This document shows positions 1,655 to 37,137 of a stretch of 41,037 bases of DNA, piece by piece. Source of the stretch: Deltaproteobacteria bacterium (lineage in GTDB: Bacteria > Myxococcota_A > Polyangia > JAAYKL01). Location: positions 1-41,037 of the forward strand of contig JAFGQN010000090.1 of NCBI GenBank assembly GCA_016935665.1, in the 5' to 3' direction. The first letter of the stretch is position 1, and every line of letters starts with the position of its first letter. Both the position numbers and the translations under genes were made by a program. Under the pieces are notes generated by a model that was not told the DNA's origin, did no database searches, and saw only the letters and a list, made by a program, of their open reading frames with translations.

Positions 1655-1699
1655 TCTGTCAGGCGACTTTAAAAAAGTAGAAAAACCAAGCCTATAAAC

Positions 1700-1734
1700 G
1701 AAAACCTTTCGCATCTGTGACACAAAAGGTTTTC
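1700..1734. terminator. bidirectional hairpin between convergent genes
   Basis: A perfect 10-bp inverted repeat (GAAAACCTTT at 1700-1709, AAAGGTTTTC at 1725-1734, loop 15) lies between the convergent stops at 1654 and 1753. There is no long T-tract after either arm, so it may act as a weak terminator for both genes. Confidence 0.5.
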
Positions 1735-1752
1735 CCGTTGACTAATGATTCA

Positions 1753-2829: not shown

Positions 2830-2850
2830 AGACAAATTGGGTTAAAAAAA

Positions 2851-3393
2851 TTATCGATTCCAAAACACATGGGTTTTCCCGTTCACTTCAAGGGTGAAGA
2901 TGTCGCCAGAAATATCCATGTCGTTGCCGTAACTATCAAAATCAATGTAGGAGCGCAGATTTTGCGGAACATTCTCAAGTCCTCCTGTCTCTTCGAGGAA
3001 CGACTCTGCCCAGTCAGCGAGAGAATCTCCCTCCCCGGCATACTCATCCTGTAAAAGACATTTTGCCCTGTCCAGCTGACTGAGTCCGCCACAGTGATTG
3101 ACCAGTTCGGAAAAAAGCTCGCCCCACTCTTCATACGCTTCGGCAAAAGCTGCTATGTCATCGAGACACTCGTATTCAGAAAGGCGGACGGAACCGAAGT
3201 ACCGGTAGTCATGGATAGCCCATTCCTCAGCATAGGGCTGACTGCTTTGTTTTAGTATTTTTTTTATTTCGTCCCTGATTTCAGACGCGGATCTATCACA
3301 TTCAATCCAGCGTCCGTGCAGTGTTCCCGCGTTATATGAAGCCAAGCAGGCGACATAAATACTCGGAGTACCCGGACTGTGTTTCATAGGCAT
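2851..3393 (-). CDS. ardA: antirestriction protein ArdA
   Basis: This 180-residue, strongly acidic protein has the ArdA layout. It begins with IYVACLASYNAGTLHGRWI and continues with a WAIHDYR motif, a long acidic helical centre and a final domain. ArdA proteins are DNA mimics that block type I restriction enzymes and protect incoming mobile DNA; they are usually about 165-180 residues, as here. It sits between a 113-residue unknown gene and the primase-like gene on the same strand, a pairing typical of conjugative or integrative elements. A second in-frame ATG two codons downstream is an equally possible start. Confidence 0.9.
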   Translation of the reverse strand: MPMKHSPGTPSIYVACLASYNAGTLHGRWIECDRSASEIRDEIKKILKQSSQPYAEEWAIHDYRYFGSVRLSEYECLDDIAAFAEAYEEWGELFSELVNHCGGLSQLDRAKCLLQDEYAGEGDSLADWAESFLEETGGLENVPQNLRSYIDFDSYGNDMDISGDIFTLEVNGKTHVFWNR

Positions 3394-3446
3394 TTAAGTT
3401 ATGGGGTAAAAAATCATTATAGCGGAAATGCCGTTGGAAATGAAGG

Positions 3447-3788
3447 TCAAATATCCAGCTCAATTTGTAGCTGTCCCGATTGGGATGCACAATTTTTTCG
3501 GAAGGCAGGATCTTTTCTCAACTCTTCCTGATGCTTCTCATGGAGCAGATTGGCGCGAACATCAAAAGCGTCCAAGACCTCTTCACTTGATAGCTCATGA
3601 CCGTAGTTTCCAAAGAAATCTGACCGGTACCCCGTTTCAGAAATGTACTCAGAAAAGAATTGAAAATGAGGCATGCCACAGAAATTTTCATAGATGTAAT
3701 GAACGACAATTCCGTTTTTCAAAGCACGTTGTCGCATTTGGCAAATAGTTGTAAACCGACGTCGGGTTCTATCAATGTTATCTTGCAT
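3447..3788 (-). CDS. hypothetical protein upstream of ardA
   Basis: This predicted 113-residue protein begins MQDNIDRTRR and ends in a polar tail. The frame stays open further upstream to 4106. That extension overlaps the promoter and start of the divergent gene at 4015 and has poor composition, so I use the internal ATG. No known family is recognised. There are scattered aromatic residues in the middle (HYIYENFCGMPHFQFF) and a helical, charged C-terminus. It lies 53 bases before ardA on the same strand, so it is probably the first gene of an ardA-primase operon. No strong ribosome binding site is visible. Confidence 0.5.
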   Translation of the reverse strand: MQDNIDRTRRRFTTICQMRQRALKNGIVVHYIYENFCGMPHFQFFSEYISETGYRSDFFGNYGHELSSEEVLDAFDVRANLLHEKHQEELRKDPAFRKNCASQSGQLQIELDI

Positions 3789-3916
3789 GGTCGTAGGGAT
3801 TAAAAAGCGATTCCCAAACCTCGACAGCAGGGAGCCAAAAACGCAAGGAGGAATCCATCGGAGCATTCCTTGTGCTTTTGTGACTGATGGAAACTGTGCT
3901 AATCGCCATAAATCCC

Positions 3917-3954
3917 GTGACCGGCAGATACAGTGACCGGCAGATAGGCAGATA
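3917..3954 (+). repeat. direct repeats next to a promoter, possible operator
   Basis: The 14-mer GTGACCGGCAGATA occurs at 3917-3930 and 3933-3946, and its last eight bases recur at 3947-3954. The array ends just before the -35 box of the replication-relaxation-like gene, in the divergent intergenic region. It could be an operator or a short iteron set. Confidence 0.5.
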
Positions 3955-3957
3955 GGC

Positions 3958-3986
3958 TTGGAGAAAGAACGCTCATCCGCTATAAT
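3958..3986 (+). promoter_or_regulatory. sigma70-type promoter of the replication-relaxation-like gene
   Basis: A TTGGAG box (3958-3963) is followed after exactly 17 bases by a perfect TATAAT box (3981-3986). Transcription would start near 3993, so the first usable start codon is the ATG at 4015 rather than the in-frame codon at 3958. Confidence 0.75.
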
Positions 3987-4014
3987 ATACTTTTGCCAAA
4001 CTAACCCACCGTCT

Positions 4015-4878
4015 ATGCGACACTCACGATTCATGGAACTAATGGAGCTGCTGATTAAATACCCTATGACTGCCTCCATGATTTTTCGTGCGTCGCGAAA
4101 CTTCAAGAACCCTTACGGAAGTATAGGCACACTCAGAAATGAACTGAAAAGCCTGCACGATGGAGAATGGATACAACGCCAGAAATTGCCATCTGTGCGA
4201 AAAGGGGAGCGGGAATTCATCTATTTTCCATCAAAAAAAATCAAACGGGTCGATTGCTTTGAAGAGCATCAACTTTCTGATGCTACATTTGAAGGATTCT
4301 CCGGTCATGAATGGCACGCTGAAGCCGTTTCTGATTTCATGAGTCATGTGGAGCGCTGTGCTGGCACCATCAAAGAACGCGTTCAAATACTTTGCACTGT
4401 TCAGGATAGATACTTTCAACAAGCCGTTCACGTCACTTTTCTCGGTGACGACAAACAAACCGCGCTGGAACCCGACCATGTACTCGTCGTAAAAATCGAT
4501 GGTGCTATTAATCTGTTGTTTCTTGAACTATGGAATCAGCCGGCACTGGCAAACCCACGAAAACCTGCATCCATATCCCGTTCCATCCGCTTCCGTATGG
4601 CAAAATACAAAAGCTTTGCCGGAAATTTCAGACAAAACCACCAGGTTCGCCAATGGGAGACAGAATTCCGACACCGTTTCAAAGGATTCCGTGTATTAAT
4701 GGTAACGACAAGAGGAGATGCGCCAAGAAATAGAATGCTGTCAATTGCGAAAAATGATGGCTACAGGTCAATGTTTTACTTCGCCACAATGGACGATATT
4801 CGCCAATCCGCCAACATCTTCACCAAACCAGTTTGGCACTTACCGAATGGCAAGGTACGTGGCCTTATCGACGATTAA
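4015..4878 (+). CDS. replication-relaxation family-like protein
   Basis: This 287-residue protein has a winged-helix-like N-terminus (about 1-70) containing the phrase GSIGTLRNELKSLHDGEWIQR, typical of DNA-binding wings. The middle and C-terminal part (LEPDHVLVVKIDG-x-x-x-LLFLELW, then RFRMAKYKSF) resembles the restriction-fold domain of replication-relaxation (Replic_Relax) proteins found on plasmids and integrative elements. The start at 4015 is chosen because a perfect promoter lies just upstream and would leave any earlier codon untranscribed. The gene is divergent from the ardA operon, and direct repeats in the shared upstream region may regulate it. The role in replication or relaxation of the element is inferred from family resemblance only. 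Confidence 0.6.
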   Translation: MRHSRFMELMELLIKYPMTASMIFRASRNFKNPYGSIGTLRNELKSLHDGEWIQRQKLPSVRKGEREFIYFPSKKIKRVDCFEEHQLSDATFEGFSGHEWHAEAVSDFMSHVERCAGTIKERVQILCTVQDRYFQQAVHVTFLGDDKQTALEPDHVLVVKIDGAINLLFLELWNQPALANPRKPASISRSIRFRMAKYKSFAGNFRQNHQVRQWETEFRHRFKGFRVLMVTTRGDAPRNRMLSIAKNDGYRSMFYFATMDDIRQSANIFTKPVWHLPNGKVRGLIDD

Positions 4879-5048
4879 ATTTCGGTTGAACAAGTTACGC
4901 AGTCGGTTTCGCATTTAGTCCAAATGTCGATAGTCGGGATGTCTGCGTCAATTCTTATCCCAAACACGTTACGCGGGTTGACGCTCTGCATGACGTCGGA
5001 CGGAAAAAGAAGAGGCATACCCCAAAGCCCGCCTGCGTAACCATTATT

Positions 5049-5076
5049 AAAGCACCTCTCTTCTGAGGGGTGCTTT
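5049..5076. terminator. rho-independent terminator-like hairpin
   Basis: AAAGCACCTC pairs with GAGGGGTGCTTT (one bulged G) around a short loop, followed by T on the + strand and preceded by A. It could end transcription of the replication-relaxation-like gene 170 bases upstream. Confidence 0.55.
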
Positions 5077-5113
5077 TCTCCAACCTGTTTATCCGTGCCC
5101 TATTTTCATGCAA

Positions 5114-5164
5114 CCAGTAAACCAGATTACCCGTACCCAGTAAAACCCGTTTCACCGTAAATCC
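5114..5164 (+). repeat. iteron-like decamers
   Basis: Three related decamers, CCAGTAAACC (5114), CCAGTAAAACC (5137) and CCGTAAATCC (5155), lie 18-23 bases apart and just before the large palindrome. They resemble weak iterons, but the copy number is low. Confidence 0.35.
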
Positions 5165-5179
5165 GTTCCAAACCCAGTT

Positions 5180-5256
5180 GGGTGTCGGCAGAGCGGAGCG
5201 CCGCCCAAGAGCAGCGTGTCGTCTGGTCTTGGGCGGGGGGATGCCCGCCGACACCC
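5180..5256. repeat. nested 77-bp palindrome
   Basis: The outer arms GGGTGTCGGC (5180-5189) and GCCGACACCC (5247-5256) are perfect 10-bp inverted repeats. Inside them CCGCCCAAGA (5201-5210) and TCTTGGGCGG (5227-5236) form a second perfect 10-bp stem. The result is a long GC-rich cruciform or hairpin in an AT-rich region, downstream of a replication-related gene. Confidence 0.7.
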
Positions 5257-5518
5257 TCTCCTAACCATTTGCCGTTTTCCCAGACAGAAAGCCGTAAAAA
5301 AATGAACGATTAATGATTACCCCGTGAACACCGTTCACAGTTAAAACACCAAAAAAACATTCTGGCGGTTAGTTAATGGAAACCCATATTTCGCTGGCAT
5401 CCTTTGATATTCCGCACACGTCATACTTTCAGAAACAAGTTACCGAATATTGAGCAATCCGGTACCTCCATACCCCATTAAATATATAAAAATAATCATT
5501 TTATGGATAGAACACCAA

Positions 5519-5547
5519 TTGAATCGCCTACCACAACATGTTATGAT
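5519..5547 (+). promoter_or_regulatory. sigma70-type promoter of the RloC-like gene
   Basis: TTGAAT (5519-5524) and TATGAT (5542-5547) are separated by 17 bases. This leaves a leader of about 120 bases before the ATG at 5674 and rules out the earlier in-frame start at 5503. Confidence 0.6.
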
Positions 5548-5673
5548 TCAGCAGGCAAGGTATTAAATCCAAGCGCATTCAGTTTCTGTTTCCCCAATCT
5601 CTGTTCATGCCAATTTTATTGCGACCACGGGTTTAATGTTTGTTTCTCATTAAATAACTTGGAGCGAACAGAA

Positions 5674-8226
5674 ATGAATCAGCACTCAAAAGACTATCTA
5701 CAGGAATATGCAGCCACCGCACCCTATTGGTTGCAAAATTTAATTATAGAGGCAATTGCCACGAACGGTAAAATTGATAGCGCGAAATTGAGCGACGTCT
5801 ACAACATGGTTCTTGCGAATGACAATAATAAAACAGTTCCCGCCGCAGCAACACCAGCAAACCACAGCGATGACAGACTTTTGGTATTAAAACAAATGAC
5901 ACATGAGAAGGGTGTCAACGCGCTGAAATATGACGAATCTTTCAAATTTAGCCCCCATTGTACTGTTCTATTCGGCCTGAATGGCTCTGGAAAGAGTGGG
6001 TACTTCAGAATTTTAAATGAAATCGCCGGTGGCAATCAGAAGAAAGAAATTCTGAAAAACATCTATTCGCCAACCGGCGATACACTTTCTGCCAAAATCG
6101 AATACGAGTATGACGGTGCTCAATTAACAATGAATTGGAACAATCAGGCTCGGGCAATCGCGCCATTCAACAGAATTAAAGTATTTGATTCCTCATATCT
6201 TGATGGTCTTCTTTCAAAACGCGGTGTTGATGAGACCCTCGTGCAACCTTTTGGATTGCATCTTTTCTCGTATATCATTGCAATTTTGGATAATTTTAAA
6301 GCCAAGCTGGCGCAAGAAGCTACCTCAAAAAAAAATCAGCAACCAAGTTTAGCATTGGAGAATCTGTCTGAGCCACTTCGTACCGCATTTCAAAGCCACT
6401 CGGTCACTGTCCCACAGATGAAAAGCATTCGGTCCCTGACCGTTTTCAATCCTCAGGAACAATCAAAACTAACAGAGTTAGAAAACGAAATTCGTACGCT
6501 TCAGCAAACCAATATTGAAGACAGGATAAAAATCGAAACGCAAAAAAAGACGAAATTAGCTGCACTGAAAAAATCACTTTCAGATAAACGGACAAAATTA
6601 GTGAATGAATTGAAGTCAACGCAACTTCTCCTAGCCACCTACAAAACGGCGAAAGCGAGTAGCGATGCACACAAAAAGCAAATCTCGATTCTCGAAACTC
6701 TGCCCGGAAGTGATTCTAAAGCGTGGAAGGATTTCATTTCTGCTGCAGATTTGTACGCGACAGAAAGTGGAATACCTAGTGATGAAAAAATCTGTGTCTA
6801 CTGCCGACAACCCTTGGATGCAAATGCAATTAAACTGGTGCAAGCATATGGCGACTATCTTGGCAACGACTCGAAACAGAAGCTCGACAGCGCTATTTCT
6901 GCCATCAAGCAAAAAAAAGACGACCTAGCAATCGTGCAAACCGGCATTGCCGTTGATGCGGATATTCAGGAATATTTCCAAAATACAGCCTTCAACGCGG
7001 AAAAATCTTTGTCTGACGCTCTGGCGGATGTATCGACGAATTTTTCTGAAGTACTCAGCACTATGAAAAAAAAGTTGGATGAGCACAGCGATTTAATAGA
7101 ACCAAACATTTTGCCAATCGAAGAGATTTGCACACGCTTGCAGACAGAAATTGATGCTTCCGAAAATAAAATTAAGGGGTACCAATCCTCCAGTGCTGAG
7201 AAGACAACCAAGATTCAGACTCTGCAGCAACAAGCCGCTCCGCTCCGGGAAAAAAAATCGCTCACAGAACAGAAGGTTTCCATTGAAAAATGGCTAGCGC
7301 TTCATTTGGAAGAAAAGGAACTCAATAAAAAAAGGAATGAAATCAAAACCCGTCCACTGACAGACCTTAGCGGAAAAGCTCATAACGAACTCCTTACAGA
7401 AAATCTCAAATCCAAGTTCTCTACCGAGTTAGCCAATCTCGGATTTCTCGCAAGTGTCGAGCTGCAAACTGCCGGAACATCAAAAGGAATTCCATTCACA
7501 GTTCTAACCATTACGAATACCAATCATCTAAGAGATGTATTAAGCGAGGGAGAACAAAAAACAGTTGCGCTCGCACTGTTCCTTGCCGAATCGATGCTTC
7601 AGAATCAGAAGAATCCAATCATTCTTGACGACCCGGTAAACAGTCTTGACCACAAAATCGCTGCAAGATTCGCAGAACGCCTCCTAGAGTTGGAAAGTCA
7701 GGTCGTTGTTTTTACGCACAAAAAGTTATTTCTCGACGCTTTCGAGACATCAAACCATGCACATATCTGCAAGAACATGAGCAACGGATGCAACTCACCC
7801 AAAAAACATATTTTCCTATACACGGTTCAGTCCGAAGGAATTTCGAGAAAAGGTGTCATCGTAAACAGAAAAGCCAATAAGGCAAAAACCCACTTAGAAA
7901 CCGCAAAACAACATCTTTTAGAAACACCATTCGTGAAACATCTGGATACTGCAACAGCGCTTCGTAAAACCGTCGAATGCATGGTTGATGAAAAGGTTTT
8001 TAATAACCAAACGCCAACGAAGCTGAGCACGAAAAACAACCGTATCCACTGGGATAGCCTAAAAAACATGTGCACAGATGCCAATCTAATCGACGTCCTC
8101 CACAGAGTACATGACAGAGTATCCGGCGGAATGATGCACAATGGAGTCGAAAGTGAAGAAAACCCAATAGAGGTCGATGAATTCAATCAGATGGTCTCGG
8201 AACTTCAAGGATGTATTGGTCAATAA
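5674..8226 (+). CDS. rloC: RloC/PrrC-like AAA ATPase with zinc hook and HEPN-like C-terminus
   Basis: This 850-residue protein has a Walker A motif at residues 101-108 (GLNGSGKS). Two coiled-coil arms flank a CVYC zinc-hook motif (C374, C377). An ABC signature (LSEGEQKTVALALF) precedes Walker B (IILDDPVNSLD, around 650-659). This is the AAA_13 plan of RloC and PrrC, ATPase-controlled anticodon nucleases that cut tRNA when phage or DNA stress is sensed. The C-terminal region carries candidate nuclease residues R764-x3-E768 with H792, and an R815-x6-H822 pattern of the HEPN type. The start at 5674 has GGAG nine bases upstream and lies downstream of the promoter. A 90-residue gene follows at once. 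The RNase activity is inferred; other HEPN-tailed AAA_13 proteins would look similar. Confidence 0.65.
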   Translation: MNQHSKDYLQEYAATAPYWLQNLIIEAIATNGKIDSAKLSDVYNMVLANDNNKTVPAAATPANHSDDRLLVLKQMTHEKGVNALKYDESFKFSPHCTVLFGLNGSGKSGYFRILNEIAGGNQKKEILKNIYSPTGDTLSAKIEYEYDGAQLTMNWNNQARAIAPFNRIKVFDSSYLDGLLSKRGVDETLVQPFGLHLFSYIIAILDNFKAKLAQEATSKKNQQPSLALENLSEPLRTAFQSHSVTVPQMKSIRSLTVFNPQEQSKLTELENEIRTLQQTNIEDRIKIETQKKTKLAALKKSLSDKRTKLVNELKSTQLLLATYKTAKASSDAHKKQISILETLPGSDSKAWKDFISAADLYATESGIPSDEKICVYCRQPLDANAIKLVQAYGDYLGNDSKQKLDSAISAIKQKKDDLAIVQTGIAVDADIQEYFQNTAFNAEKSLSDALADVSTNFSEVLSTMKKKLDEHSDLIEPNILPIEEICTRLQTEIDASENKIKGYQSSSAEKTTKIQTLQQQAAPLREKKSLTEQKVSIEKWLALHLEEKELNKKRNEIKTRPLTDLSGKAHNELLTENLKSKFSTELANLGFLASVELQTAGTSKGIPFTVLTITNTNHLRDVLSEGEQKTVALALFLAESMLQNQKNPIILDDPVNSLDHKIAARFAERLLELESQVVVFTHKKLFLDAFETSNHAHICKNMSNGCNSPKKHIFLYTVQSEGISRKGVIVNRKANKAKTHLETAKQHLLETPFVKHLDTATALRKTVECMVDEKVFNNQTPTKLSTKNNRIHWDSLKNMCTDANLIDVLHRVHDRVSGGMMHNGVESEENPIEVDEFNQMVSELQGCIGQ

Positions 8227-8245
8227 CCCCATCGAAAGGAATAAT

Positions 8246-8518
8246 ATGTCACTAAATCCTAAGCAATCCGGTGCAACACATGACCTAACCAAATTACTGG
8301 TTGCTGCGACAGGTGTAACCCATCTTCAAGTGAGAACAATACGTGCATCGGAAAGACCCGGATGCGTGGAAGTCGAAATCACATATCTGCAAAACGCCAA
8401 AATGGTCGGGGCGTCGGTTCCTGTAGAATGTGGCTATGTTAGAGGAATGTCACTTTACGAAGAGCCGACATTGGTCAGCATTCGTGAAAACTGGCCACAG
8501 AACTGGATGAATTTTTAA
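8246..8518 (+). CDS. small protein downstream of the RloC-like gene
   Basis: This predicted 90-residue protein begins MSLNPKQSG. Its ATG has AAAGGA five bases upstream and lies 19 bases after the rloC-like stop, so the two genes are probably cotranscribed. It has a beta-rich look (CVEVEITYLQNAKMVGASVPVE) and ends NWPQNWMNF. No family is recognised. It could be a regulator or partner of the upstream ATPase, but the only support is linkage. Confidence 0.6.
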   Translation: MSLNPKQSGATHDLTKLLVAATGVTHLQVRTIRASERPGCVEVEITYLQNAKMVGASVPVECGYVRGMSLYEEPTLVSIRENWPQNWMNF

Positions 8519-8538
8519 ACTATAGTGCTGGCATCGAT

Positions 8539-8562
8539 GCTGTTTGCAGATGCAACACCAGC
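8539..8562. terminator. weak hairpin between convergent genes
   Basis: GCTG/CAGC outer and TTGCA/TGCAA inner pairs form a short hairpin between the convergent stops at 8518 and 8572. No T-tract follows directly. Confidence 0.3.
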
Positions 8563-8571
8563 TGTTTGGGC

Positions 8572-9858
8572 TCACAAAAAAGAATGCAAAGTGAGTTTGC
8601 CAAAATGCTGTGCATTCACCCAGCTGCTCTGGTTTGCATCTTTTAGCGCATTGGCATCTTTTTCTGCATGCAAACAAAAAATCGTTTGCACGTTGACATC
8701 ACTTGCCTGTCGAAGTGTATCAAACAGTGCTTCTTGGTTTCGCACATCCAGTTTAACGAAAAAGCCACTGTCGATGATTAGAAGCCAATAATCATCAGAA
8801 TGTAATTGTATTACCTTTAGCACAATCTCCAAAAATGCCAGTGTTGATTCTCCACCACTGATGAGGGCTTGAGGCAAATAGAAATCTCTATTATTTTTGG
8901 GCACTTTTATTTCTAATTCTCTATGTGACGTTCTCTTAAATTTGAAACCGAATGTTGACGTCTGAAAAAATTCTTGACGGATTGAATCCCACATCAAATC
9001 TTCAGGTGTATCCAAGACCTCTGCCAGATAAGCAACACATTCCGGCCAAGCATCATTCAAATCACCAGACCGTTTGTAGAACTGTTCATTCAAATGCAAC
9101 ACACGAACCAACGTTTTCGACCACCCCATGGAAGGAAGTGAGTTCACTTCCACATGAAGTCTTGCGGAAGCGCTATTTTCTTCCTCCTCCGTTGGTACTG
9201 CTGTCAGCCTAACACTATCCGCTTTCGTTCTTGTTCGTCTCGAAACTTCAATATATGGATATGTAGCTGCCCGCTCGATAAAATGAAATCTCTCGTTGAA
9301 CTTGTTCCAATGTACAGTCCCGGAGAAACTGGCAATAATCTGACAAATCGTTGTTTTGCCAGATTCGTTTCCCCCTAAAAGGATATTGTGTTGCCCCAAT
9401 CTGAAACTATACTCTTCCTTGAATGCACCAACATTTTTAAATGAGACTCGCGTAATACCGTATGGTGCCAGTTCTTCACCGGTTTTCACTCGGTGAAAAA
9501 TCGACGCCTCATGTTGCGTTTTCCATCGCCTGAGAGTATCCGCCGTATATTCCTTCTCGTTGTCATCGACGTGCTTGGCGTGATTTTGGCAAAGCCATAT
9601 GCCATTTCTTTCACTGGAACGTTCCTCGCTACTGATGATAGAATCGTATCTTGGTCCACCCGGTGCCGCCGCGGTTATGTGAGCAGCGACTCCAATATCT
9701 GTGATTTCCGAACTCCGACTGTCTGACCCGGCAATAGTTAGCCAACCACAGTCTGGAAAAGCACATATGTATCCCGATTTTTTCGCAATAAGCTCTCTGG
9801 TTTTTGAAGAAAAATCATTTCTGTTTCTAACCGATGCTGTATCTGAATCTGTACTCAT
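8572..9858 (-). CDS. HNH-like domain fused to an ABC/AAA-type ATPase
   Basis: This 428-residue protein has two parts. Residues 25-120 form an HNH-type nuclease fold of the kind seen in defence proteins: C32-x4-C37, AHI with H60, PGGPRYD, then NGIWLCQNH with N85, C90 and H93. Residues 135-428 form an SMC/ABC-like ATPase with an NVGAF strand, Walker A at 162-170 (GGNESGKTT), a signature (ISGGESTLAFLEI) and Walker B (WLLIIDSG). The usual catalytic glutamate after the Walker B aspartate is replaced by serine. No long coiled coil is present. AAGGGA precedes the ATG. It lies 164 bases after gajB on the same strand, so it may be a third gene of that cluster or a separate system. DNA cleavage coupled to ATP-dependent sensing is inferred. 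Confidence 0.75.
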   Translation of the reverse strand: MSTDSDTASVRNRNDFSSKTRELIAKKSGYICAFPDCGWLTIAGSDSRSSEITDIGVAAHITAAAPGGPRYDSIISSEERSSERNGIWLCQNHAKHVDDNEKEYTADTLRRWKTQHEASIFHRVKTGEELAPYGITRVSFKNVGAFKEEYSFRLGQHNILLGGNESGKTTICQIIASFSGTVHWNKFNERFHFIERAATYPYIEVSRRTRTKADSVRLTAVPTEEEENSASARLHVEVNSLPSMGWSKTLVRVLHLNEQFYKRSGDLNDAWPECVAYLAEVLDTPEDLMWDSIRQEFFQTSTFGFKFKRTSHRELEIKVPKNNRDFYLPQALISGGESTLAFLEIVLKVIQLHSDDYWLLIIDSGFFVKLDVRNQEALFDTLRQASDVNVQTIFCLHAEKDANALKDANQSSWVNAQHFGKLTLHSFL

Positions 9859-10022
9859 TCTTTTCCCTTACTTTTCCTGAACCAGCACTTCGCCGAAAAG
9901 ATGGCGTGAACTCAATCCAACAATTGTCTCATATTTGGCGTACCATTCTTAATGTTCTCTGCGTCGACCCAAAATTTAGGGTCAAAAAGCATCAAATACC
10001 ATAAAAACGCCATGAGTAAATG

Positions 10023-11801
10023 TCATGCTTTCAGATATTGAATAGCCAGAAATGGATGCTCTGCAATAATACCGTCCACGCAATCAGCAATATTAACAAA
10101 AAGATGATTTTTGGCACGGCTTAAACCCACATAATAAATGCGAGCGCTGTCATCTGCATCATTGTCAATTGCATTTTTACCATTCCGTATCCATTTCTCA
10201 AACTCCTCCTCAGTGACAACGAGCATCACCGAATCAAACTGCGTTCCTTTAGCGCTGTGTATTGTTCGTATTCGCTCTTTTGCAGATGTATCTGTTCTGA
10301 TGAATGGTAACAGGTCGCCGAACTTGTGGCTGTCTGCGAACCGTTTAACGTTTCCAGCTCTATAGCCAGCTCCAATTTTTATATTCTGCTCATCGGCTAA
10401 GCGTTTTGAAATCGACGTATAGTATTCATATAACGTTTTATCTAAAAAATCAGCGGACTGCAGCTCTCGAATTATACCGATGGCAATGCGTCTAAAAGTC
10501 ATCGGAGGGTAGTTCAGCCGATGCCCACCTTTGTCCTTCTTCAAATACTTCACGACCTCAGCAACTGCGTTCTTATTTTCATTCTTTATGGAAAAATCTC
10601 TCGCAAGAAGCAAAGAATGCAAAAATGCTGGACGTGTTCTATCTGAATCAACGGCATACAACGCTTTTATCAGATTATCTCCTGAGGGCTGATTAGCGAT
10701 GCCATGCCGTATTGCATTTACTTGGCTATTGTTACGAGCGAGAATAGTCGGAGTTGGAAAACCTTGGTCTTCTATCCACCTCAATGCGCTCGTTGTATCA
10801 CCAACCAAAATCTGCGTCGCAGCATTTTCGAACGGGTCACGCCGACTTTCTTGCTGAATGTCATCTCTTAGCGTATTCAGAAATTTAACGATTTGTTCAA
10901 CGGAGCGATGGTTGTCATCGATTTTGTAATCCTTAATCCCTTCTAATGTAAAGGATTCAAAATCTTTCTTTTGTGCACCGGTAAACAAGTAAATAGACTG
11001 CGCAATATCTCCGATAACCCCAACAACTGTTGACGCGTCCGCAATTTTCTTAATTATCCACGTCTGAAGTTGCGTTGTATCCTGAAACTCATCAACGAAA
11101 ATATATGCAAACCTTTTACGTACAAATTGCAGAACCTCCGGGTGATTGGCCAAAAGGTAATGAGCGAAAAACAAGACATCCTCATGATGCAGAATGCCGT
11201 ATCTCCAATAGCCTTTCTTGTACTCGATTAATTCTTCTGGGGTAAACACAATCGGAATTTTCAAATATTTTTTTTGAGGGTCAAAAACCAACCGACAGGA
11301 ATCACCAACGAGTTGCCATTCTAACGTGACTAATTTGTTAAGTAGTGCCTTTTTATTTTTCGGATAATTTAAATAATCTAAAGATTTTCCCCGCTGGACC
11401 TCAAGCCAAGCAATCCAGCTCCGAAGTCTATCCTGTCGGACAAAATGCTCGGAATGCCCACTCAATTTCTCGCAGTCTAAATACAAGCCGGAGTCAGTCT
11501 CATCCTGAAGCAGAAATTTGAAAGGCTGAATGACGTAGCGGTACAAAAAACTATGGATAGTTGAAACATCAACTCTATACGAATCCACGCCAAGTCTTTC
11601 GGATAGCTCCTTGGCAGCCACATTCGTATATGTGATAGCGGCAATTTTTCTGGTCTTGCCAAGCTGATTTGATTCGCGCAAAACTTTTTTCAGGTGCTGC
11701 GCCAGCCAATGCGTTTTCCCTGCACCGGGACCAGCAAAAACACGAAAATGGTGTTCCGTATTCGTCATCTCACGTATATGTGCCATGCTCGGAAAATCCA
11801 T
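10023..11801 (-). CDS. gajB: UvrD/Rep-like helicase, Gabija GajB-like
   Basis: This 592-residue SF1A helicase shows its motifs in order: Walker A AGPGAGKT at 23-30, AAITYTNVAAKEL (Ia), FVDEFQDT (II), VIGDIAQSIY (III), DDNHRS (IV), TIHSAKGTQFDSV (V) and YYVGLSRAK (VI). It starts three bases after the stop of the OLD-type gene upstream, so the two should be translationally linked. A helicase directly after an ATPase-TOPRIM nuclease is the gajA-gajB arrangement of the Gabija anti-phage system. In Gabija the GajA nuclease is held in check by nucleotides, and GajB is thought to sense DNA ends and consume them. It is longer than the best-known GajB (about 494 residues), mostly in the helicase insertions. 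Confidence 0.8.
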   Translation of the reverse strand: MDFPSMAHIREMTNTEHHFRVFAGPGAGKTHWLAQHLKKVLRESNQLGKTRKIAAITYTNVAAKELSERLGVDSYRVDVSTIHSFLYRYVIQPFKFLLQDETDSGLYLDCEKLSGHSEHFVRQDRLRSWIAWLEVQRGKSLDYLNYPKNKKALLNKLVTLEWQLVGDSCRLVFDPQKKYLKIPIVFTPEELIEYKKGYWRYGILHHEDVLFFAHYLLANHPEVLQFVRKRFAYIFVDEFQDTTQLQTWIIKKIADASTVVGVIGDIAQSIYLFTGAQKKDFESFTLEGIKDYKIDDNHRSVEQIVKFLNTLRDDIQQESRRDPFENAATQILVGDTTSALRWIEDQGFPTPTILARNNSQVNAIRHGIANQPSGDNLIKALYAVDSDRTRPAFLHSLLLARDFSIKNENKNAVAEVVKYLKKDKGGHRLNYPPMTFRRIAIGIIRELQSADFLDKTLYEYYTSISKRLADEQNIKIGAGYRAGNVKRFADSHKFGDLLPFIRTDTSAKERIRTIHSAKGTQFDSVMLVVTEEEFEKWIRNGKNAIDNDADDSARIYYVGLSRAKNHLFVNIADCVDGIIAEHPFLAIQYLKA

Positions 11802-11804
11802 AGG

Positions 11805-13871
11805 TTAGTCCTTCAAAATGTACTCAAACGCGCTTTTTATATAATCAGGGACATTGAACGGTTTTCGCGTACTGGAATCAAGATTTTCCCTCAGGCTATA
11901 TTCCAATTCAAAAGCATGCTCGCCCTTTGCATCCGACACTGCTTCATAATACACACTCGAAAACAATGCCTCGCTTTTTTTCTTATCATCCCAAGCACAG
12001 GTATCATACTTCGCCGCTATATTCTCATTGAGGCACTTCTCCTTCACTGAGGAAAACTGGACCGTTCCCGCCTCCATCAATGCTTGCATTGCTTTCAGAC
12101 TCGTAGTCCCATTTTTTCCATCAGTAGCCATTGAAGAAGTAAACAAAAGGTCAGAATTCGGGTTCGCCATCGCCAGCTCATATTCAAGCGTTTTGCCAGT
12201 GCTTGCAGGGGGATGAAAAATTTTGACATTGTCATGTTCATCAGCAATGTCAATCAGGTTGATTACATGCGAAGATAAAGCCTTGAAGTCATCACCCGCG
12301 CCTAATTCCACTGGATAACATTTTTTCCAGCGAGAAGGAGTTCCCGTTTTCATTACAGGGTCAGCATCCGTAATACAGGCGATTCTCCTTTTTATAGCCG
12401 ACTCATTCTCGGGTTCCTTAAACTGAAATAGTTTCAGAAAGTGATGAAAAGTCCGGCTATCGACACCGACAATCGCGACATGTTGCTTCAATAACGAATC
12501 TTCAAGCCCAAGGTATGCAGCGAAACATGGTAACAGCAATTGTTCAGCAATACCCTCAACAAAGATTATCCGACTGGAAAACAGCATGTTCGATTTCGTG
12601 GCATCCAAGAACCGCTGCACATATGCTCGAGAATCCTTTTCCGCTACCGCACGTCCCGGATACGCAACTCGGAATTTCTCTTTTTCGTCTTCATACAAAC
12701 ACACAATACTGCCCAAATCTACAGCGGCGGTGATGTGGGTGGAATGGGTTGTAATAAATGTCTGTCTGACCTGTTTTTTGTCACTAAGGTTCTTCTTCAG
12801 AAATCGAAGAAACTGATATTGCATGGCGGGGTGCAAATGAGCCTCAGGCTCTTCGATAGCCAGAATAGGAAAAACCTTCGCATTGTCACCAACAAAGTCA
12901 GAACATTCCATCTGCATCTTTGCCAGAATGAGTGCAATGAAAAGCAGATTGTTGTAACCCAGCCCATTGTTGGTAATTGGCACGTGAAAACCGGACCGCT
13001 CAACAACGAGGCGCAGTGCGAACAACAAATCTTTCTCTGAGGCATTGGCATCGAAATCCGGCACACCTCCCTTGTGCGCCCCTGTTTCGTCCGAATACTC
13101 CAATATATCGCTTTTTGACACCCGCTCAGAAAGTCCTTTGAGCAGCTCTTTGGCCTTTGCTACAAAGTCTTCTTCACGCTGTTTAAGTTTTTTGATGGTG
13201 TCGTCATCACATTCCGTACGGCTCTTTCCTTTCAGCAAATCATAATCGAGAAAATAATTCAGAACTTCTTTCAATATCGTGTTGTGCCCGTAAAACATCT
13301 GTCGTTCAGCATCGCGAATGGCATCCAGAAACTGGAAATCGAACTTCTCCAGCATTTCGGAATCAGCCTTTTCCCGCAAAGAAGGATTGCCGCCATAGAT
13401 GCGAAATACATATTTCGGCAGATAGTATCGTTCAATCAGTGCCCAGCATTTCTCAGAATCGTACTCCCCGTCGTCATTTTTCAACTCCACGATTTCTTTC
13501 TTGTAATTGTCATAGTCACTACCGACAGGCAAAAACAGATGGTACGTTAGCTGGGCTTCATACGGAGAATCGTGTTTCACTAGCCAATCGTAGACGACAT
13601 TGCTGTCATCATCAGCATCTTCATACTCGGTGATGGTTGCTGTGATAACTATCTCCGGCGGTTCCTCAAAGTTCGTATTCGCTTTGTTAAAATCATCAAT
13701 CACGGCGCGTGAGCGGTTGCCCCGGTTCGCGAAAACTCGATGTAGAGCCTGAATCAGATTCGTTTTACCCGCATTATTGTGCCCGATGATTACGTTCAGA
13801 TTGGGCGAAAAATCGATAGTGCTATTTTTGAAGTTCCGAAAATTCTTAATTTGAAGTCTTGAGATGTACAT
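11805..13871 (-). CDS. gajA: OLD-family ATPase-TOPRIM nuclease, Gabija GajA-like
   Basis: This 688-residue protein begins with an ABC-type ATPase: the FRNF strand, Walker A at 30-38 (GHNNAGKTN), then Walker B LAIEEPEAHLHP and the TTHSTH switch in the 340-390 range. A TOPRIM nuclease follows, with E439 in FVEGIAEQ and D502/D504 in TDADP, the metal-binding set of OLD enzymes. GajA of Gabija has this plan and nicks specific DNA when nucleotide pools fall. The gene is preceded by a promoter (13904-13932) and a G-rich ribosome binding site, and is followed at once by gajB. It is longer than the best-known GajA (about 578 residues). A class 2 OLD enzyme with a helicase partner is the alternative name for the same pair. 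Confidence 0.8.
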   Translation of the reverse strand: MYISRLQIKNFRNFKNSTIDFSPNLNVIIGHNNAGKTNLIQALHRVFANRGNRSRAVIDDFNKANTNFEEPPEIVITATITEYEDADDDSNVVYDWLVKHDSPYEAQLTYHLFLPVGSDYDNYKKEIVELKNDDGEYDSEKCWALIERYYLPKYVFRIYGGNPSLREKADSEMLEKFDFQFLDAIRDAERQMFYGHNTILKEVLNYFLDYDLLKGKSRTECDDDTIKKLKQREEDFVAKAKELLKGLSERVSKSDILEYSDETGAHKGGVPDFDANASEKDLLFALRLVVERSGFHVPITNNGLGYNNLLFIALILAKMQMECSDFVGDNAKVFPILAIEEPEAHLHPAMQYQFLRFLKKNLSDKKQVRQTFITTHSTHITAAVDLGSIVCLYEDEKEKFRVAYPGRAVAEKDSRAYVQRFLDATKSNMLFSSRIIFVEGIAEQLLLPCFAAYLGLEDSLLKQHVAIVGVDSRTFHHFLKLFQFKEPENESAIKRRIACITDADPVMKTGTPSRWKKCYPVELGAGDDFKALSSHVINLIDIADEHDNVKIFHPPASTGKTLEYELAMANPNSDLLFTSSMATDGKNGTTSLKAMQALMEAGTVQFSSVKEKCLNENIAAKYDTCAWDDKKKSEALFSSVYYEAVSDAKGEHAFELEYSLRENLDSSTRKPFNVPDYIKSAFEYILKD

Positions 13872-13903
13872 CGCCCCCTCTTTCAGCTAATAGTTCGTTA
13901 CCC

Positions 13904-13932
13904 ATACTAAAGAACATCCTTCCTATTTGCAA
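13904..13932 (-). promoter_or_regulatory. sigma70-type promoter of gajA
   Basis: On the minus strand TTGCAA (13932-13927) is followed after 17 bases by TAGTAT (13909-13904). The expected transcript start near 13897 leaves a leader of about 26 bases. Confidence 0.6.
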
Positions 13933-13976
13933 CAAGAAGGAGCGTCGTCTCGCTAGAGACTCCAATGTAATTATTC

Positions 13977-14206
13977 TTACACCCCGTAAACAAGGAGCCT
14001 GCCGACACCGTGAACGGAGGTGTAAAGCCGTTTGTCGGAGGCAAAACTCCCAACGAACAAAGACATGAAGATTGAAAATCGAAATGTCGCCGTGAGTTGT
14101 TGGAGTGCTGCAATCCCGACACTCCCTTTTAATCCCCATCGAGCTGCGACCCGACAGGGGAGCTTGTGAGTGGCAAGGAGAAAAAGGGAGTGTCGGGATT
14201 TTTTCG
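13977..14206 (+). ncRNA. structured intergenic region, candidate non-coding RNA
   Basis: Four structures follow one another on the + strand. TTACACC (13977-13983) can pair with GGTGTAA (14019-14025). GCCTGCCGACA (13997-14007) can pair with TGTCGGAGGC (14033-14042), interleaved with the first pair as in an H-type pseudoknot. ACTCCCAAC (14046-14054) pairs with GTTG-TT-GGAGT (14096-14106). A perfect 19-bp stem (14112-14130 with 14182-14200) is followed by a T-run, as in a terminator. The region lies upstream of the gajA promoter and downstream of the leftward HNH gene, so neither gene explains it. No promoter on the + strand is obvious, so transcription is unproven. Confidence 0.4.
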
Positions 14207-14379
14207 GATACGAAGTAACGAAAACAATCCCGGCAAACGGCTAAAATAATTATTAAAATAGGAATTCCAATGACACCGAAGGTGTAACAGCGGTGACACA
14301 GCTTTGGTACATATTGTGGCTATTCTGCTCGTAAAAGAGCCACCCCTTTGACATACTCATAGTACACTTTTGGTACGTC

Positions 14380-15060
14380 TTACACATGTTTTTTCAAGGA
14401 CTCTTTCGGTATGGCAACAGCTTCAAAGCCCTCATAAAAAACCATTCTCAGTGCTTTATCACCATTTTCCTCCAAGAATTGGTAATAAAAAATCTCTTGA
14501 TTCTCTCCATGTCGCGGCACGTTCTGAAATGTCTGCCGATTTTTTCTCAATAGCTCTTCATGAATAATGTTTATCTGGGCATTTTCATTTTGCATAGAAG
14601 GTGGATAAACCAATAATTCATCCGTCCATTTTTCGTTGTAATGTTTGAAATGTAACCCTCTGGCAATTTTGTCCAGCTCTCCAATCACCCTTTCAGTATC
14701 AATTTTTAGTTTTACGGTTTGCTGACCACGAACACTTACGGACTGTGCATCTTGCAGAATTGTCGTAGCAAGGGCACCGTCACGTCGCTTCAACGCTCTC
14801 AGCACTTTCGTTGCAGCATGGTTGTAAGCAGCACCGTTATTCTTAAAATGCCACACCAAAACAGCCATAAGATATTCGTCATGATCTGATGTATTAAGAT
14901 TGTGTACCTTGCAGGATGGTACTTTTATCAGGTTTTTTCTATAATCCATGCCAGCAGGCAAGTCCTTCTGTTCAGGAAACAGACACTTCGGAGGAACGTG
15001 TTCTCTGCTCACTTTCGGCGCAACACACATATAACATGTTTCTGATTCTTTTTTCGACAT
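14380..15060 (-). CDS. HNH endonuclease-like protein
   Basis: The N-terminus of this 226-residue protein carries C9-x2-C12, then REHVPPK (H21), and later VPSCKVHNLNTSDHDEYL with a Cys, HN and DE pattern. This is a treble-clef HNH nuclease layout common in phage-defence and mobile loci. The remaining 150 residues are helical and charged and unrecognised; they may recognise a substrate or partner. AAGGG precedes the ATG. It follows a 248-residue unknown gene by 66 bases on the same strand, so the two may form an operon. DNA or RNA cleavage is inferred from the motif only. Confidence 0.65.
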   Translation of the reverse strand: MSKKESETCYMCVAPKVSREHVPPKCLFPEQKDLPAGMDYRKNLIKVPSCKVHNLNTSDHDEYLMAVLVWHFKNNGAAYNHAATKVLRALKRRDGALATTILQDAQSVSVRGQQTVKLKIDTERVIGELDKIARGLHFKHYNEKWTDELLVYPPSMQNENAQINIIHEELLRKNRQTFQNVPRHGENQEIFYYQFLEENGDKALRMVFYEGFEAVAIPKESLKKHV

Positions 15061-15126
15061 CGTAGCCCTTTTAGTTTTGTGAATTATCTACTTTTCAGAA
15101 TCCCTCTCTCAGGTGAGAGAAATAAA

Positions 15127-15873
15127 TTATGAAATTTTTAGACCGAAGTGGTCACATTTCTCCCATTCTATTTTCACGCGTTTGACCACTTTTAGCCTTA
15201 ATCCAAGAGGTCGTAGATACGTTTGGAAATCGTCAATGAAAGCTTCGTAAGCATCGCCTTTATTTTGAATTATTTCGAGCAGCTCGCACCCCAATTGAAC
15301 ATCGACATAGGCAACATTAGCAATGCCGATTCCATGGTTTTTGAAATCACTTCTGCTAATTATTGATATTGAATCGGAGATGTTATCTGTTTTTTCTAAA
15401 AAACGTTGGATATTTTTATTGATTCTTTCATAGTCCCAATCTTCTTTGGGCAAAATGACTATCAGTTTTTTTCTGTCTTTAGTAACCGCCAACTCTTCAA
15501 ACGAATTCGGCAGGTGAACATTGCCTGCAAACTCCCTAAGATACTGCATGAGCTTCGACTGATAAAACTCGACATACCCCACATCGATTTCAGTCGTCCA
15601 CCCACACAGATTTTCATAAATTGTCATTAGGCCTTCCAGTTTAATTCGATGAAGGACCAAAGGGCATTTGTACTCTTCGAGAACTAAAATATCCCCATGA
15701 ACCAATTGAATTTCAACTGTTTGAGCGAGTCCCTCGGCAGGCAATAACCTTCTCGCAACAAAAGTTACGAATTCCTCCAAGTCTACCGCCACGGATTTAT
15801 AGCCATGAAAGTCATCAATCTCATATTCTGACACTGCCCCTTCAATGCACCATCGCGTATCCAAATGTATCAT
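15127..15873 (-). CDS. hypothetical protein paired with the HNH gene
   Basis: This 248-residue protein is not recognised. It looks cytosolic, with no signal or membrane segment, and mixes strands and helices; examples are LIVILPKEDWDYERINKNI in the middle and LRLKVVKRVKIEWEKC near the end. GGAGGGG lies seven bases before the ATG, so the start is well supported. It is the gene nearest the tRNA-derived attachment site and the first of a likely two-gene unit with the HNH protein. A partner or immunity role is possible, but the sequence does not show one. Confidence 0.65.
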   Translation of the reverse strand: MIHLDTRWCIEGAVSEYEIDDFHGYKSVAVDLEEFVTFVARRLLPAEGLAQTVEIQLVHGDILVLEEYKCPLVLHRIKLEGLMTIYENLCGWTTEIDVGYVEFYQSKLMQYLREFAGNVHLPNSFEELAVTKDRKKLIVILPKEDWDYERINKNIQRFLEKTDNISDSISIISRSDFKNHGIGIANVAYVDVQLGCELLEIIQNKGDAYEAFIDDFQTYLRPLGLRLKVVKRVKIEWEKCDHFGLKIS

Positions 15874-16072
15874 TTATAACCCCTCCACAAATTGCACAGA
15901 CAACCTGAAATGAGGATGACTGCTCAATGGTCTTTTTATATCATTTGCCTATGCTATCATTTCTTGCCGGGAATGGTATCAAATAAACAGTGGATACCCT
16001 TTTTAAAAGCCCAAAGCCTCTCCCACTATCTGTCTCAAAGTGTCCAAAACGCGTCCAGACTGGTCGGTATTT

Positions 16073-16102
16073 CTGTGGATTCCCGTGGACTCCTGTGGAC
16101 TC
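16073..16102 (+). repeat. three tandem decamers, possible integrase arm sites
   Basis: CTGTGGATTC, CCGTGGACTC and CTGTGGACTC stand directly next to each other, about 50-80 bases inside the tRNA-derived attachment site. Three adjacent 10-bp sites near the core are the layout of the lambda P' arm sites, so they may bind a tyrosine integrase. Confidence 0.45.
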
Positions 16103-16149
16103 GAAAAGAATTTCCAACTAATTGAAAACACAGAAAAATGTAATGGTTT

Positions 16150-16221
16150 CGCCCATCTGCTGGATTTGGTTAGTTTGTCCTCATAACCCGAAGGTCATCG
16201 GTTCAAATCCGGTCCCCGCTA
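16150..16221 (+). other. degenerate initiator tRNA-fMet copy, probable attachment site of the island
   Basis: Bases 16180-16221 equal the 3' half of a tRNA with anticodon CAT: loop CTCATAA, a CCCGA 3' stem strand, a T-arm ATCGG-TTCAAAT-CCGGT, then acceptor CCCCGCT and a discriminator A. Three C's after the anticodon loop are the mark of the initiator tRNA. The D-loop (TTTGGTTAG) is still readable. The matching GGG of the anticodon stem is missing, and the 5' acceptor strand does not pair, so it cannot work as a tRNA. A 3' tRNA fragment beside its native terminator is the classic scar of tRNA-targeted integration. Confidence 0.65.
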
Positions 16222-16230
16222 AAGTGAAAA

Positions 16231-16265
16231 AGCTCGGTAATCTTAAACGGTTACCGGGCTTTTTT
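16231..16265 (+). terminator. rho-independent terminator after the tRNA remnant
   Basis: AGCTCGGTAA (16231-16240) pairs with TTACCGGGCT (16251-16260) with one mismatch and is followed by a run of T. It starts ten bases after the tRNA end, as a native tRNA terminator would. Confidence 0.8.
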
Positions 16266-16799
16266 CGTTAACGCGAAAACCTGTTCATTTTATCGCTCTT
16301 TCCAAATCCTTTCCAAATGCCTAATTCATGCCGCATCTGGAAAGCTCTGCCCTTCGGCCATCTTCAATTTTCATGTAACCTTGCCGAAGGTCTTCAAAAA
16401 GTCCATCGAGAAGCAGACTGTGAAAATGAGGGTTGAGGTTCAGCAGCCCGTACTACCATGTCGTCGAAATTGATAATTTATTAGCCGTATCATCCTTACT
16501 ATCGACAGAACCTGGAGATTATCACCAGACCGCATAAACCGGAGCATATTCGAATCACGCACATGAGACCGCTGGAGATGGAACAGGCGGCTGCAAAGGA
16601 GCGACTGGACAATGCAAATGAGGCGATTCGAATCACGGAACTGCGCCAAAAGGAACCGCAAGTCATCCAAAAAGGGGAAAACACAGCGTTGCAGCTTAAT
16701 CTTGATCGCCAGACCGCAGCATATGCGATACGTGGGCGGATCCTGGCAAACAGATTATTCCTGCGCCCTGGCGGGGAGTCTCATCCATTGATGAGCTGG
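16266..16799 (+). other. intergenic, no gene recognised
   Basis: After the tRNA terminator I see no credible gene. A frame opening near 16563 has no ribosome binding site and unrecognisable sequence until it enters the GH53-like remnant. The 12-mer ATTCGAATCACG occurs twice (about 16547 and 16625), which hints at a small duplication. Confidence 0.4.
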
Positions 16800-17207
16800 C
16801 CGACCTTGTGTTGTGTATGCCTATACCGCGGATGTGATGTCCTCCGCCATCGCTGCGGGCGCCCGTTCGAACATGGTTCAGAAAAGGTTGCGGTCGATAT
16901 TCCTGGCGTGTCCTGTTACGCTGCATCCCAGGGACAGCCTTCGGTCTGGCAGAATACATTCACCAATCTGGCGCAAACCTATCCGGATTTAAAATTCATC
17001 ATTGCCAAATACAATCCCCATCGCACTGAGGCCAATATGATGATGAAAAATCTTGAGGGAGGACGCGGTCCTGGCACCTTTTTTGGGGAACCCTCCCGCA
17101 GTGGTTCATGGGGCGATGCCATGTTTACCTGGCAGGCAGGGGCCCAGGTGGCCAATAGCGCTGATTTTAAGGAATACGACAATATGCTTTCCAACCTCGG
17201 TTTATAA
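16800..17207 (+). pseudogene. remnant of a GH53-like endo-beta-1,4-galactanase
   Basis: The end of the frame (from about 16900) reads VDIPGVSCYAA, WQNTFTNLAQTYPDLKF, IIAKYNPHRTEAN and then GTFFGEPSRSGSWGDAMFTW. This resembles the C-terminal half of GH53 galactanases (GVSYY, WQ-x-T-x-x-x-LA, then a GTFFWEP-like strand). An adjacent frame upstream reads YTADVMSSAIAAGARSNMVQ, which resembles the DMVQ-containing helix of the same family. The two pieces are in different frames, the catalytic NE residues between them are missing, and the normal N-terminus and signal are absent. I therefore call it a decayed gene with a deletion and a frameshift. The family assignment is from memory. Confidence 0.45.
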
Positions 17208-28244: not shown

Positions 28245-28268
28245 CGCATGCGAAACGGAGATTTTCCG

Positions 28269-28760
28269 GTGAACGTTAAGGCAGTTTTTTTAACAACTAT
28301 TTTTGGATTTTTGCTGTGGCTTGGACTGACGTTGCAGGTTGATCCGTACAATATGGCAATCGGCGGAGTTGTGGCGCTGTTGCTGGGTGGCATTTTTGGT
28401 GCAAAATCATCCTGGCGGGATTTGAAACTGACACCCAGGTCGATTTTGGCTGTAGCTATCTGGGTTGTAGTACTGATGATTGAAATTGTCCGCTCCACCA
28501 TTGATGTAATGCTGAGGGTAATTGCCCCACGGGTACGAATCAATCCGGCCATTGTGGAAGTTAAGACTCGGCTAAAAACCAAAACCGGGCGTCTGGCGCT
28601 GGCCAGTTCCATTACACTGACCCCTGGCACACTGACCGCCGACATTCAGGATGACCGTCTGTATATTCACTGGATCGATGCCCAGTCTACCGACGTGGAC
28701 GCTGCCACCAGAGAGATTGTCCGCAAATTCGAAAAGCATTTGGAGGTGATTTTTGGCTGA
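28269..28760 (+). CDS. mrpE: MrpE/MnhE-like subunit
   Basis: This 163-residue membrane protein has two to three hydrophobic segments at the N-terminus, then the MrpE signature region: SSITLTPGTLTADIQDDRLYIHWID with TPGT. MrpE is an accessory subunit of multisubunit Na+/H+ antiporters and, as MbhA/MbxA, of archaeal respiratory complexes. The start is the GTG at 28269 with GGAG eight bases before; the in-frame ATG at 28248 has no ribosome binding site. It is the first gene of a 12-gene operon and overlaps mrpF by a few bases. Confidence 0.9.
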   Translation: MNVKAVFLTTIFGFLLWLGLTLQVDPYNMAIGGVVALLLGGIFGAKSSWRDLKLTPRSILAVAIWVVVLMIEIVRSTIDVMLRVIAPRVRINPAIVEVKTRLKTKTGRLALASSITLTPGTLTADIQDDRLYIHWIDAQSTDVDAATREIVRKFEKHLEVIFG

Positions 28761-29013
28761 CCAAATTGTCTACATCGCCTTGCTTATTATCGCGTTGAGT
28801 ATTGGCATCTCCATGTTTCGTTTTGTCAAGGGACCGTCCATTCCAGATCGCGTCGTTGCTTTTGACACCGCGGGAATCATCTCGATTTCGGTGATAGTTG
28901 TTCTGGCGCACAGCTTTGGGCGACTGATTTACGTCGACGTGGCGCTGGTGTATGGGCTGCTCAGTTTTATTGGCGTGCTTGTGGCCGCCCGATATCTCGA
29001 CAGGGGGCTGTAA
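28753..29013 (+). CDS. mrpF: MrpF/MnhF-like subunit
   Basis: This 86-residue protein has three membrane segments and the MrpF pattern: GPSIPDRVVAFDT between the first and second segments, then DVALVYGLLSFIG in the third. It begins at a TTG codon with GGAGG six bases upstream and overlaps the end of mrpE by eight bases, so translation is probably coupled. In Mrp and Mbh/Mbx complexes it forms part of the ion-translocating membrane module. Confidence 0.9.
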   Translation: MADQIVYIALLIIALSIGISMFRFVKGPSIPDRVVAFDTAGIISISVIVVLAHSFGRLIYVDVALVYGLLSFIGVLVAARYLDRGL

Positions 29014-29015
29014 TC

Positions 29016-29336
29016 ATGGAAATGACCGGTGCGATATTATTACTTCTGGCATCCATTGTGTTTCTGGTCAGTGCGCTGGGACTCGTGCGAATGCCCGACG
29101 TGTACAATCGAATTCAAACCAGTACCAAAGCCACAACACTGGGCACCATTTTGGCGATGGCGGCAGTGGCGTTCCTTCATCCGGACTGGACGCCCAAACT
29201 GGCGCTGGTGGTGCTGTTCATTCTGCTGACCAATCCCATCTCTTCTCACGTGGTGGCGCGCGCCGCCTATTTTAAGCGGGTGAAATTAAGTGACCGTACC
29301 GTGGAAGACCAGCTGAAAGACAAATTGGAGGGATAG
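29016..29336 (+). CDS. mrpG: MrpG/MnhG-like subunit
   Basis: This 106-residue protein has three membrane segments and the MrpG signature LGLVRMPDVYNRIQTSTKATTLG, followed by LFILLTNPISSHVVARAAY. It starts two bases after mrpF. It corresponds to MbhC/MbxC of the archaeal complexes and belongs to the Na+/H+ antiport module. Confidence 0.92.
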   Translation: MEMTGAILLLLASIVFLVSALGLVRMPDVYNRIQTSTKATTLGTILAMAAVAFLHPDWTPKLALVVLFILLTNPISSHVVARAAYFKRVKLSDRTVEDQLKDKLEG

Positions 29337-29339
29337 CTG

Positions 29340-29597
29340 ATGGAGATATTTCTCATTATTTTTGCTGTACTTACTGTTGCTTCCGCACTTATCGCGGTTG
29401 CCACAACGAAAAAAGCCGTCTCCATCCTCGCGGCAGGGGTGATGGGACTGTTTGCGTCTATAGTCTTCATTTTTCTGGCCGCACCGGATGTCGCCATGAC
29501 AGAGGCTGCCATTGGCAGTGGTCTGACAACGTTCATATTTTTCTTCGCCCTGAATCGAGTGAAAAGTGATCGGGCCCAGGGAGGCGCCGATGATTAA
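29340..29597 (+). CDS. mbxD: MbhD/MbxD-like subunit (DUF4040)
   Basis: This 85-residue protein has three hydrophobic segments, with the motif LAAPDVAMTEAAIGSGLTTFIFFFALNR typical of the DUF4040/MbhD domain. That domain equals the C-terminal part of MrpA, split off here as in Mbh and Mbx. It starts three bases after mrpG, and its end overlaps the next gene by eight bases. Confidence 0.88.
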   Translation: MEIFLIIFAVLTVASALIAVATTKKAVSILAAGVMGLFASIVFIFLAAPDVAMTEAAIGSGLTTFIFFFALNRVKSDRAQGGADD

Positions 29598-34716: not shown

Positions 34717-34717
34717 C

Positions 34718-35383: not shown

Positions 35384-35393
35384 GGAAATGGCG

Positions 35394-35939: not shown

Positions 35940-35948
35940 GGCAAATCG

Positions 35949-37133: not shown

Positions 37134-37137
37134 TCTG

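Follow-up and report, generated by a model that had tools for sequence, protein, structure and literature searches.

Genes and features around the scar

The window, meaning the whole 41,037-nt stretch of contig JAFGQN010000090.1 analysed here, carries a fragment of an initiator tRNA gene with a complete Gabija system and other candidate cargo genes to its left. It belongs to genome G000, a draft assembly of 249 contigs with 3.4% contamination. The main features are as follows.

1753–2835 (−): DnaG-like primase/TOPRIM protein (Pfam DNAG_N and Toprim_4)
2851–3393 (−): ArdA antirestriction protein (Pfam PF07275, E 8.9e-39)
5503–8226 (+): candidate defence ATPase of the PDC-S06 family, 907 residues (PADLOC PDLC04892, E 1e-291, residues 58–903)
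8572–9858 (−): HNH-like N-terminal domain (PDC-M68A/Cap-type endonuclease effector) fused to an ATPase (PADLOC E 2.9e-27, residues 15–126)
10023–11801 (−): GajB of Gabija, a UvrD helicase (PADLOC PDLC00119, E 2.9e-158)
11805–13871 (−): GajA of Gabija, full length (PADLOC PDLC00069, E 6.7e-235; Pfam AAA_15 and OLD-like TOPRIM)
14380–15873 (−): two scar-proximal ORFs with no confident family (14380–15060, HNH-like by eye, and 15127–15873)
16036–16058 (+): CAAAGTGTCCAAAACGCGTCCAG, a putative arm-type site for the integrase, lying within the element some 122 bp left of the scar
16180–16221 (+): att scar, the displaced tRNA-fMet 3' half corresponding to positions 33–74 of the intact gene; no functional tRNA is called
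16230–16266 (+): terminator-like hairpin and T-run after the scar, read directly from the sequence
16298–16318 (+): direct repeat of 11-bp period (CTTTCCAAATCCTTTCCAAAT, 10/10 match), a putative arm site of an older right-hand element, about +76 from the scar end

The gajA and gajB genes are adjacent, 3 bp apart, and form a complete Gabija system; a search of the genome contigs found no relatives of it. Gabija, ArdA and primase genes had been named by the first-pass annotation, and the PADLOC and Pfam matches confirm these identities. The gene at 5503–8226 had been called RloC-like and is now corrected to PDC-S06 on the strength of its match; neither Pfam nor PADLOC returned an RloC model for it, the presence of such a model in these libraries being itself unconfirmed. 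The ATPase part of the 8572–9858 product matches SMC_N below the Pfam cut-off, and this predicted fusion of HNH-like and SMC-like ATPase domains is possibly an undescribed effector arrangement. The two ORFs nearest the scar gave no Pfam or NCBIfam matches, and PADLOC returned a weak DndC match for 14380–15060 only. A broken remnant of the window primase gene, about 72% identical, is present in a congener (G002:C50 2622–2924).

The scar and the intact initiator tRNA gene

The 42 bases of the fragment are all identical to positions 33–74 of an intact tRNA-fMet on another contig of the same genome (C177:15521–15594, minus strand), which confirms the earlier assignment to tRNA-fMet. This exact match has a whole-genome E value of 4e-15, far above chance expectation. 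It begins where the anticodon loop (CTCATAA) begins, at position 33, and spans the gene to the tRNA 3' end; identity extends a few bases further (AAA). The remnant had been drawn as 16150–16221, of which only 16180–16221 stands, as tRNA similarity is absent from 16150–16179. Likewise, the anticodon-stem partner had been described as deleted: the 5' strand (TCGGG) is indeed missing, but by replacement rather than simple deletion, with unrelated sequence occupying the place of the tRNA 5' half. ARAGORN calls no tRNA and Rfam no RNA family in the window.

ARAGORN calls the C177 gene tRNA-Met(CAT), and inspection by eye reveals initiator marks, namely an anticodon stem with three G-C pairs and an unpaired 1:72 position (U-U). 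It is the only full-length tRNA-fMet match in the assembly. A tyrosine integrase of 365 residues (C177:14307–15404; PF00589, E 4.9e-19) converges on it, with 117 bp between the integrase stop codon and the tRNA 3' end, so that the predicted pairing of an intact tRNA-fMet with an integrase gene elsewhere in the genome is present. On the opposite side of the tRNA, many family members share the gene order of C177, whose last gene encodes an S4/RluD-type pseudouridine synthase. These conserved upstream neighbours indicate that the C177 gene is at its native locus and that the integrase side is the insertion. A database search with the tRNA neighbourhood returned a single matching record, JAFGWT010000121.1, a metagenome-assembled 'Deltaproteobacteria bacterium'.

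The integrase side of C177 also encodes a replication-relaxation protein, a HerA-like ATPase and two further tyrosine recombinases. When the available 15.5 kb was checked for the relaxase and type IV secretion genes of an integrative conjugative element, HerA/TraD-like and Replic_Relax proteins alone were seen. The two recombinases are adjacent (C177:1308–3577), 35% identical to each other, and kept as a pair in genome G006 at 54–56% identity.

The geometry of scar and integrase is that of tRNA-targeted integration. The scar is ordinary in kind, and the finding stands largely as the first-pass annotation predicted. The probability that 16180–16221 is a tRNA-fMet integration scar, with the left side of the window inside an element, is put at about 0.93.

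A probable link between C177 and the window as ends of a single element

Integrases of the lambda type usually have arm sites visible as short repeats near the core. About 74–92 nt downstream of the intact tRNA, C177 carries the motif AGTGTCCAAAAGGCGTCTA, which matches AGTGTCCAAAACGCGTCCA just inside the window scar at 17 of 19 positions, a score equalled by none of 200 shuffled pairs. The scar on contig C42, the second tRNA-fMet scar in this bin, reaches only 13 of 19 against the same C177 motif. The position of the window motif resembles that of repeats beside the scars in G001, C42 and G028; in G001, two copies of a 22-base repeat (AAGTCGCCCAAAAGTCGCCCAG) are present, one at 70 nt downstream of the intact tRNA and the other immediately inside the scar. 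The 17/19 match favours C177 and the window being ends of one element.

A separate observation concerns 16036–16058, which is an exact 23-base match to C177:15046–15068, within the integrase coding sequence and at a distance of some 453 nt from the 3' end of the tRNA. The length of this match exceeds chance between these regions. In five relatives, searched with their own motifs, no second copy like that of C177 was found within 6 kb downstream of the intact tRNA.

Base composition follows the same division. The inner sides have a GC content of 45.1% (C177 element side) and 43.6% (window 1–16179), and the outer sides of 50.4% (C177 chromosomal side) and 50.6% (window beyond 18 kb); on C177 the step falls in the bins around tRNA-fMet. 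The local orientations of the scar and the intact tRNA are compatible, and the two lie on different contigs. They are quite probably the two ends of one element, which would then be no shorter than 31 kb, given 15.5 kb on C177 and 16.2 kb in the window. An end-overlap comparison showed that the C177, C42 and window contigs end without overlap, so other elements may sit between C177 and the window.

DNA to the right of the scar

Downstream of the tRNA 3' end, hardly any two copies, whether intact tRNA or scar, have the same sequence, a pattern that would follow from each element carrying a sequence of its own. Repeats of period 11, with 9 or 10 of 10 positions matching, lie about 65–80 nt after 6 of 12 intact tRNAs; random 85-nt stretches reach 10/10 in about 1% of cases and 9 in 2.6%. 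Low GC (45%) persists right of the scar to about 18 kb, and 16563–17207 is a broken gene copy, a longer version of which is found on contig C113. For the right-flank genes tested, G001 and G002, the two congeners, gave either no match or a weak one. This flank yielded no integrase ORF and no significant integrase relic, and no relative joins the window right flank to an intact tRNA-fMet as an empty site would. Farther right, 28248–38964 holds a cluster of Mrp/Mbh-type antiporter and complex-I-like genes, one antiporter subunit of which has 1046 residues. This cluster is without orthologue in the two congeners; among the genomes checked only G010 has it, at 51–69% identity and on a contig without tRNA-fMet.

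Recurrence of scars and stacking in relatives

A scan of 39 genomes from the class located tRNA-fMet 3' fragments of 42–48 nt, near-exact in sequence, in G000 (two), G001, G002 (on a shared contig), G010, G012 and G028, and no 5' fragments of comparable kind were found. Two of these 3'-half scars have defence genes inside: AbiEi/AbiEii at C42, and DruE-like, PDC-M51A and UvrD-type genes in G012. C42 is identical to G002:C179 over 4068 bp, including the tRNA-fMet scar, AbiE and a DUF1016-SNase protein, which suggests that bins of related metagenomes share the contig or that it was transferred very recently. The host of C42 is therefore uncertain.

Stacking of elements is clearer in two relatives than in the window. 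In G028, the intact tRNA and the scar are each followed by the same attL-like sequence of about 90 bp; in G012, an integrase fragment with 68% identity to the G001 integrase comes after the scar. The first-pass annotation called initiator tRNA a rarer target than many elongator tRNAs, but within this family it is not an unusual one. In E. coli, metV encodes initiator tRNA. This gene is among the most-used tRNA targets of that species (PMC7545054).

Related modules are found at other tRNA genes. Contig C3 of G006 has the same backbone order as C177, with homologues of the gene at 182–889, the paired recombinases, the genes at 6303 and 7835, the HerA-like protein (33% identity) and the replication-relaxation protein (37%), and has at its end a diverged integrase, which adjoins tRNA-Asp; another G006 contig carries a 3' fragment (24 nt) of this tRNA-Asp. 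This arrangement indicates that a C177-type backbone can occupy another tRNA with a different integrase. An arm-like repeat (GTTGCCGCAATGTTGCCGTGAC) follows the tRNA-Asp scar (G006:C24 6149–6320), so stacking may occur at that site too. Homologues of the integrase INT1 adjoin several kinds of tRNA, namely fMet (G000, G012, G014), Arg, Lys/Glu, Glu and Ala. The idea that cargo near such scars is always defence was rejected: eight proteins of the G006 tRNA-Asp element gave no PADLOC matches.

Proposed mechanism and alternative readings

In the proposed mechanism, the attP of the element would carry a copy of the tRNA-fMet 3' half, and the tyrosine integrase would recombine it with the single-copy chromosomal tRNA-fMet through a crossover near the anticodon loop. 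The element's 3'-half copy would restore the tRNA, now on C177 beside the integrase gene, while the original 3' half would be displaced to the far end of the element as the window scar. Window positions 1–16179 would then be scar-proximal cargo, comprising Gabija, PDC-S06, ArdA, primase and HNH genes. Sequence identity, geometry, the integrase, arm-motif similarity and base composition are observed; the recombination event itself is not observed, and we infer it from them.

That the fragment arose without integration, as a chance duplication or as a tRNA piece borne by a CRISPR array or transposon, is highly improbable. No point in its support was found, and against it stand the integrase adjoining the intact tRNA-fMet, the form of the scars in the relatives examined, all of them 3' fragments beginning in the anticodon stem or loop, and the arm-like repeats inside most of those scars. 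A fairly unlikely alternative accepts integration but makes the scar an internal junction of a tandem array, the window element being older than and distinct from that on C177 and separated from it by at least one further element. The repeated attL-like sequence in G028, the integrase fragment in G012 and the second scar in the same bin agree with such an array. However, the window arm motif fits C177 and that of C42 does not, and C42 may be mis-binned given its identity to the G002 contig.

A different question is what the scar borders on its right. The first-pass annotation took it as the right end of a defence island, followed by the native terminator. An element very probably does end here with defence genes inside it, and a terminator-like hairpin does follow; what is doubtful is that the terminator is native and the edge an outer one. 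Were the scar a true outer edge, everything to its right would be native chromosome with the tRNA's own terminator, in keeping with the hairpin, the lack of integrase ORFs and a GC content beyond 18 kb that matches the chromosome. This is somewhat unlikely in view of the arm-like repeat at +76, the low GC that reaches about 18 kb, the broken copy of the C113 gene and the poor representation of the right-flank genes in both congeners. Rather, an older element at this site probably has its worn end in the DNA right of the scar, which would make the scar a junction between elements instead of the outer edge of an island. On a broader scale, the evidence tips slightly towards the apparently single-copy initiator tRNA of this family being a reused docking site, at which elements with different integrases stack in tandem, several with anti-phage genes near the scar.

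Significance and comparison with known systems

For an uncultured lineage, the analysis locates one end of a mobile element that bears defence genes. It also indicates that scars of one tRNA gene lead to more defence cargo in relatives, with Gabija and PDC-S06 in the window, AbiE at C42, and DruE-like and PDC-M51A genes in G012. In addition, it carries a warning for island calling: tRNA scars may not mark island edges, because the next element may start directly behind the scar.

Integration at initiator tRNA is already known, as are anticodon-centred crossovers and tandem arrays of islands at a single tRNA gene. An anticodon-centred crossover is the subsite of 2083 of 3919 tRNA-gene islands of the Islander class, 125 tandem arrays at one tRNA are known, and target switching among such integrases has been described (PMC4383910). 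Like these islands, the present element would have an intact tRNA and a tyrosine integrase at one end and a 3' tRNA fragment at the other; unlike them, its two putative ends lie on separate contigs, and the right side looks like another element. Like mobile defence islands that bear Gabija, it has both GajA and GajB, forming a complete pair, together with an ArdA gene and a further candidate defence gene; it differs in its host, from an uncultured deltaproteobacterial lineage, and its defence role is predicted from its genes. The host is unrelated to that of the E. coli metV islands, the cargo is different and the initiator tRNA gene is seemingly single-copy, yet both systems share the use of an initiator tRNA gene as a recurrent integration site.
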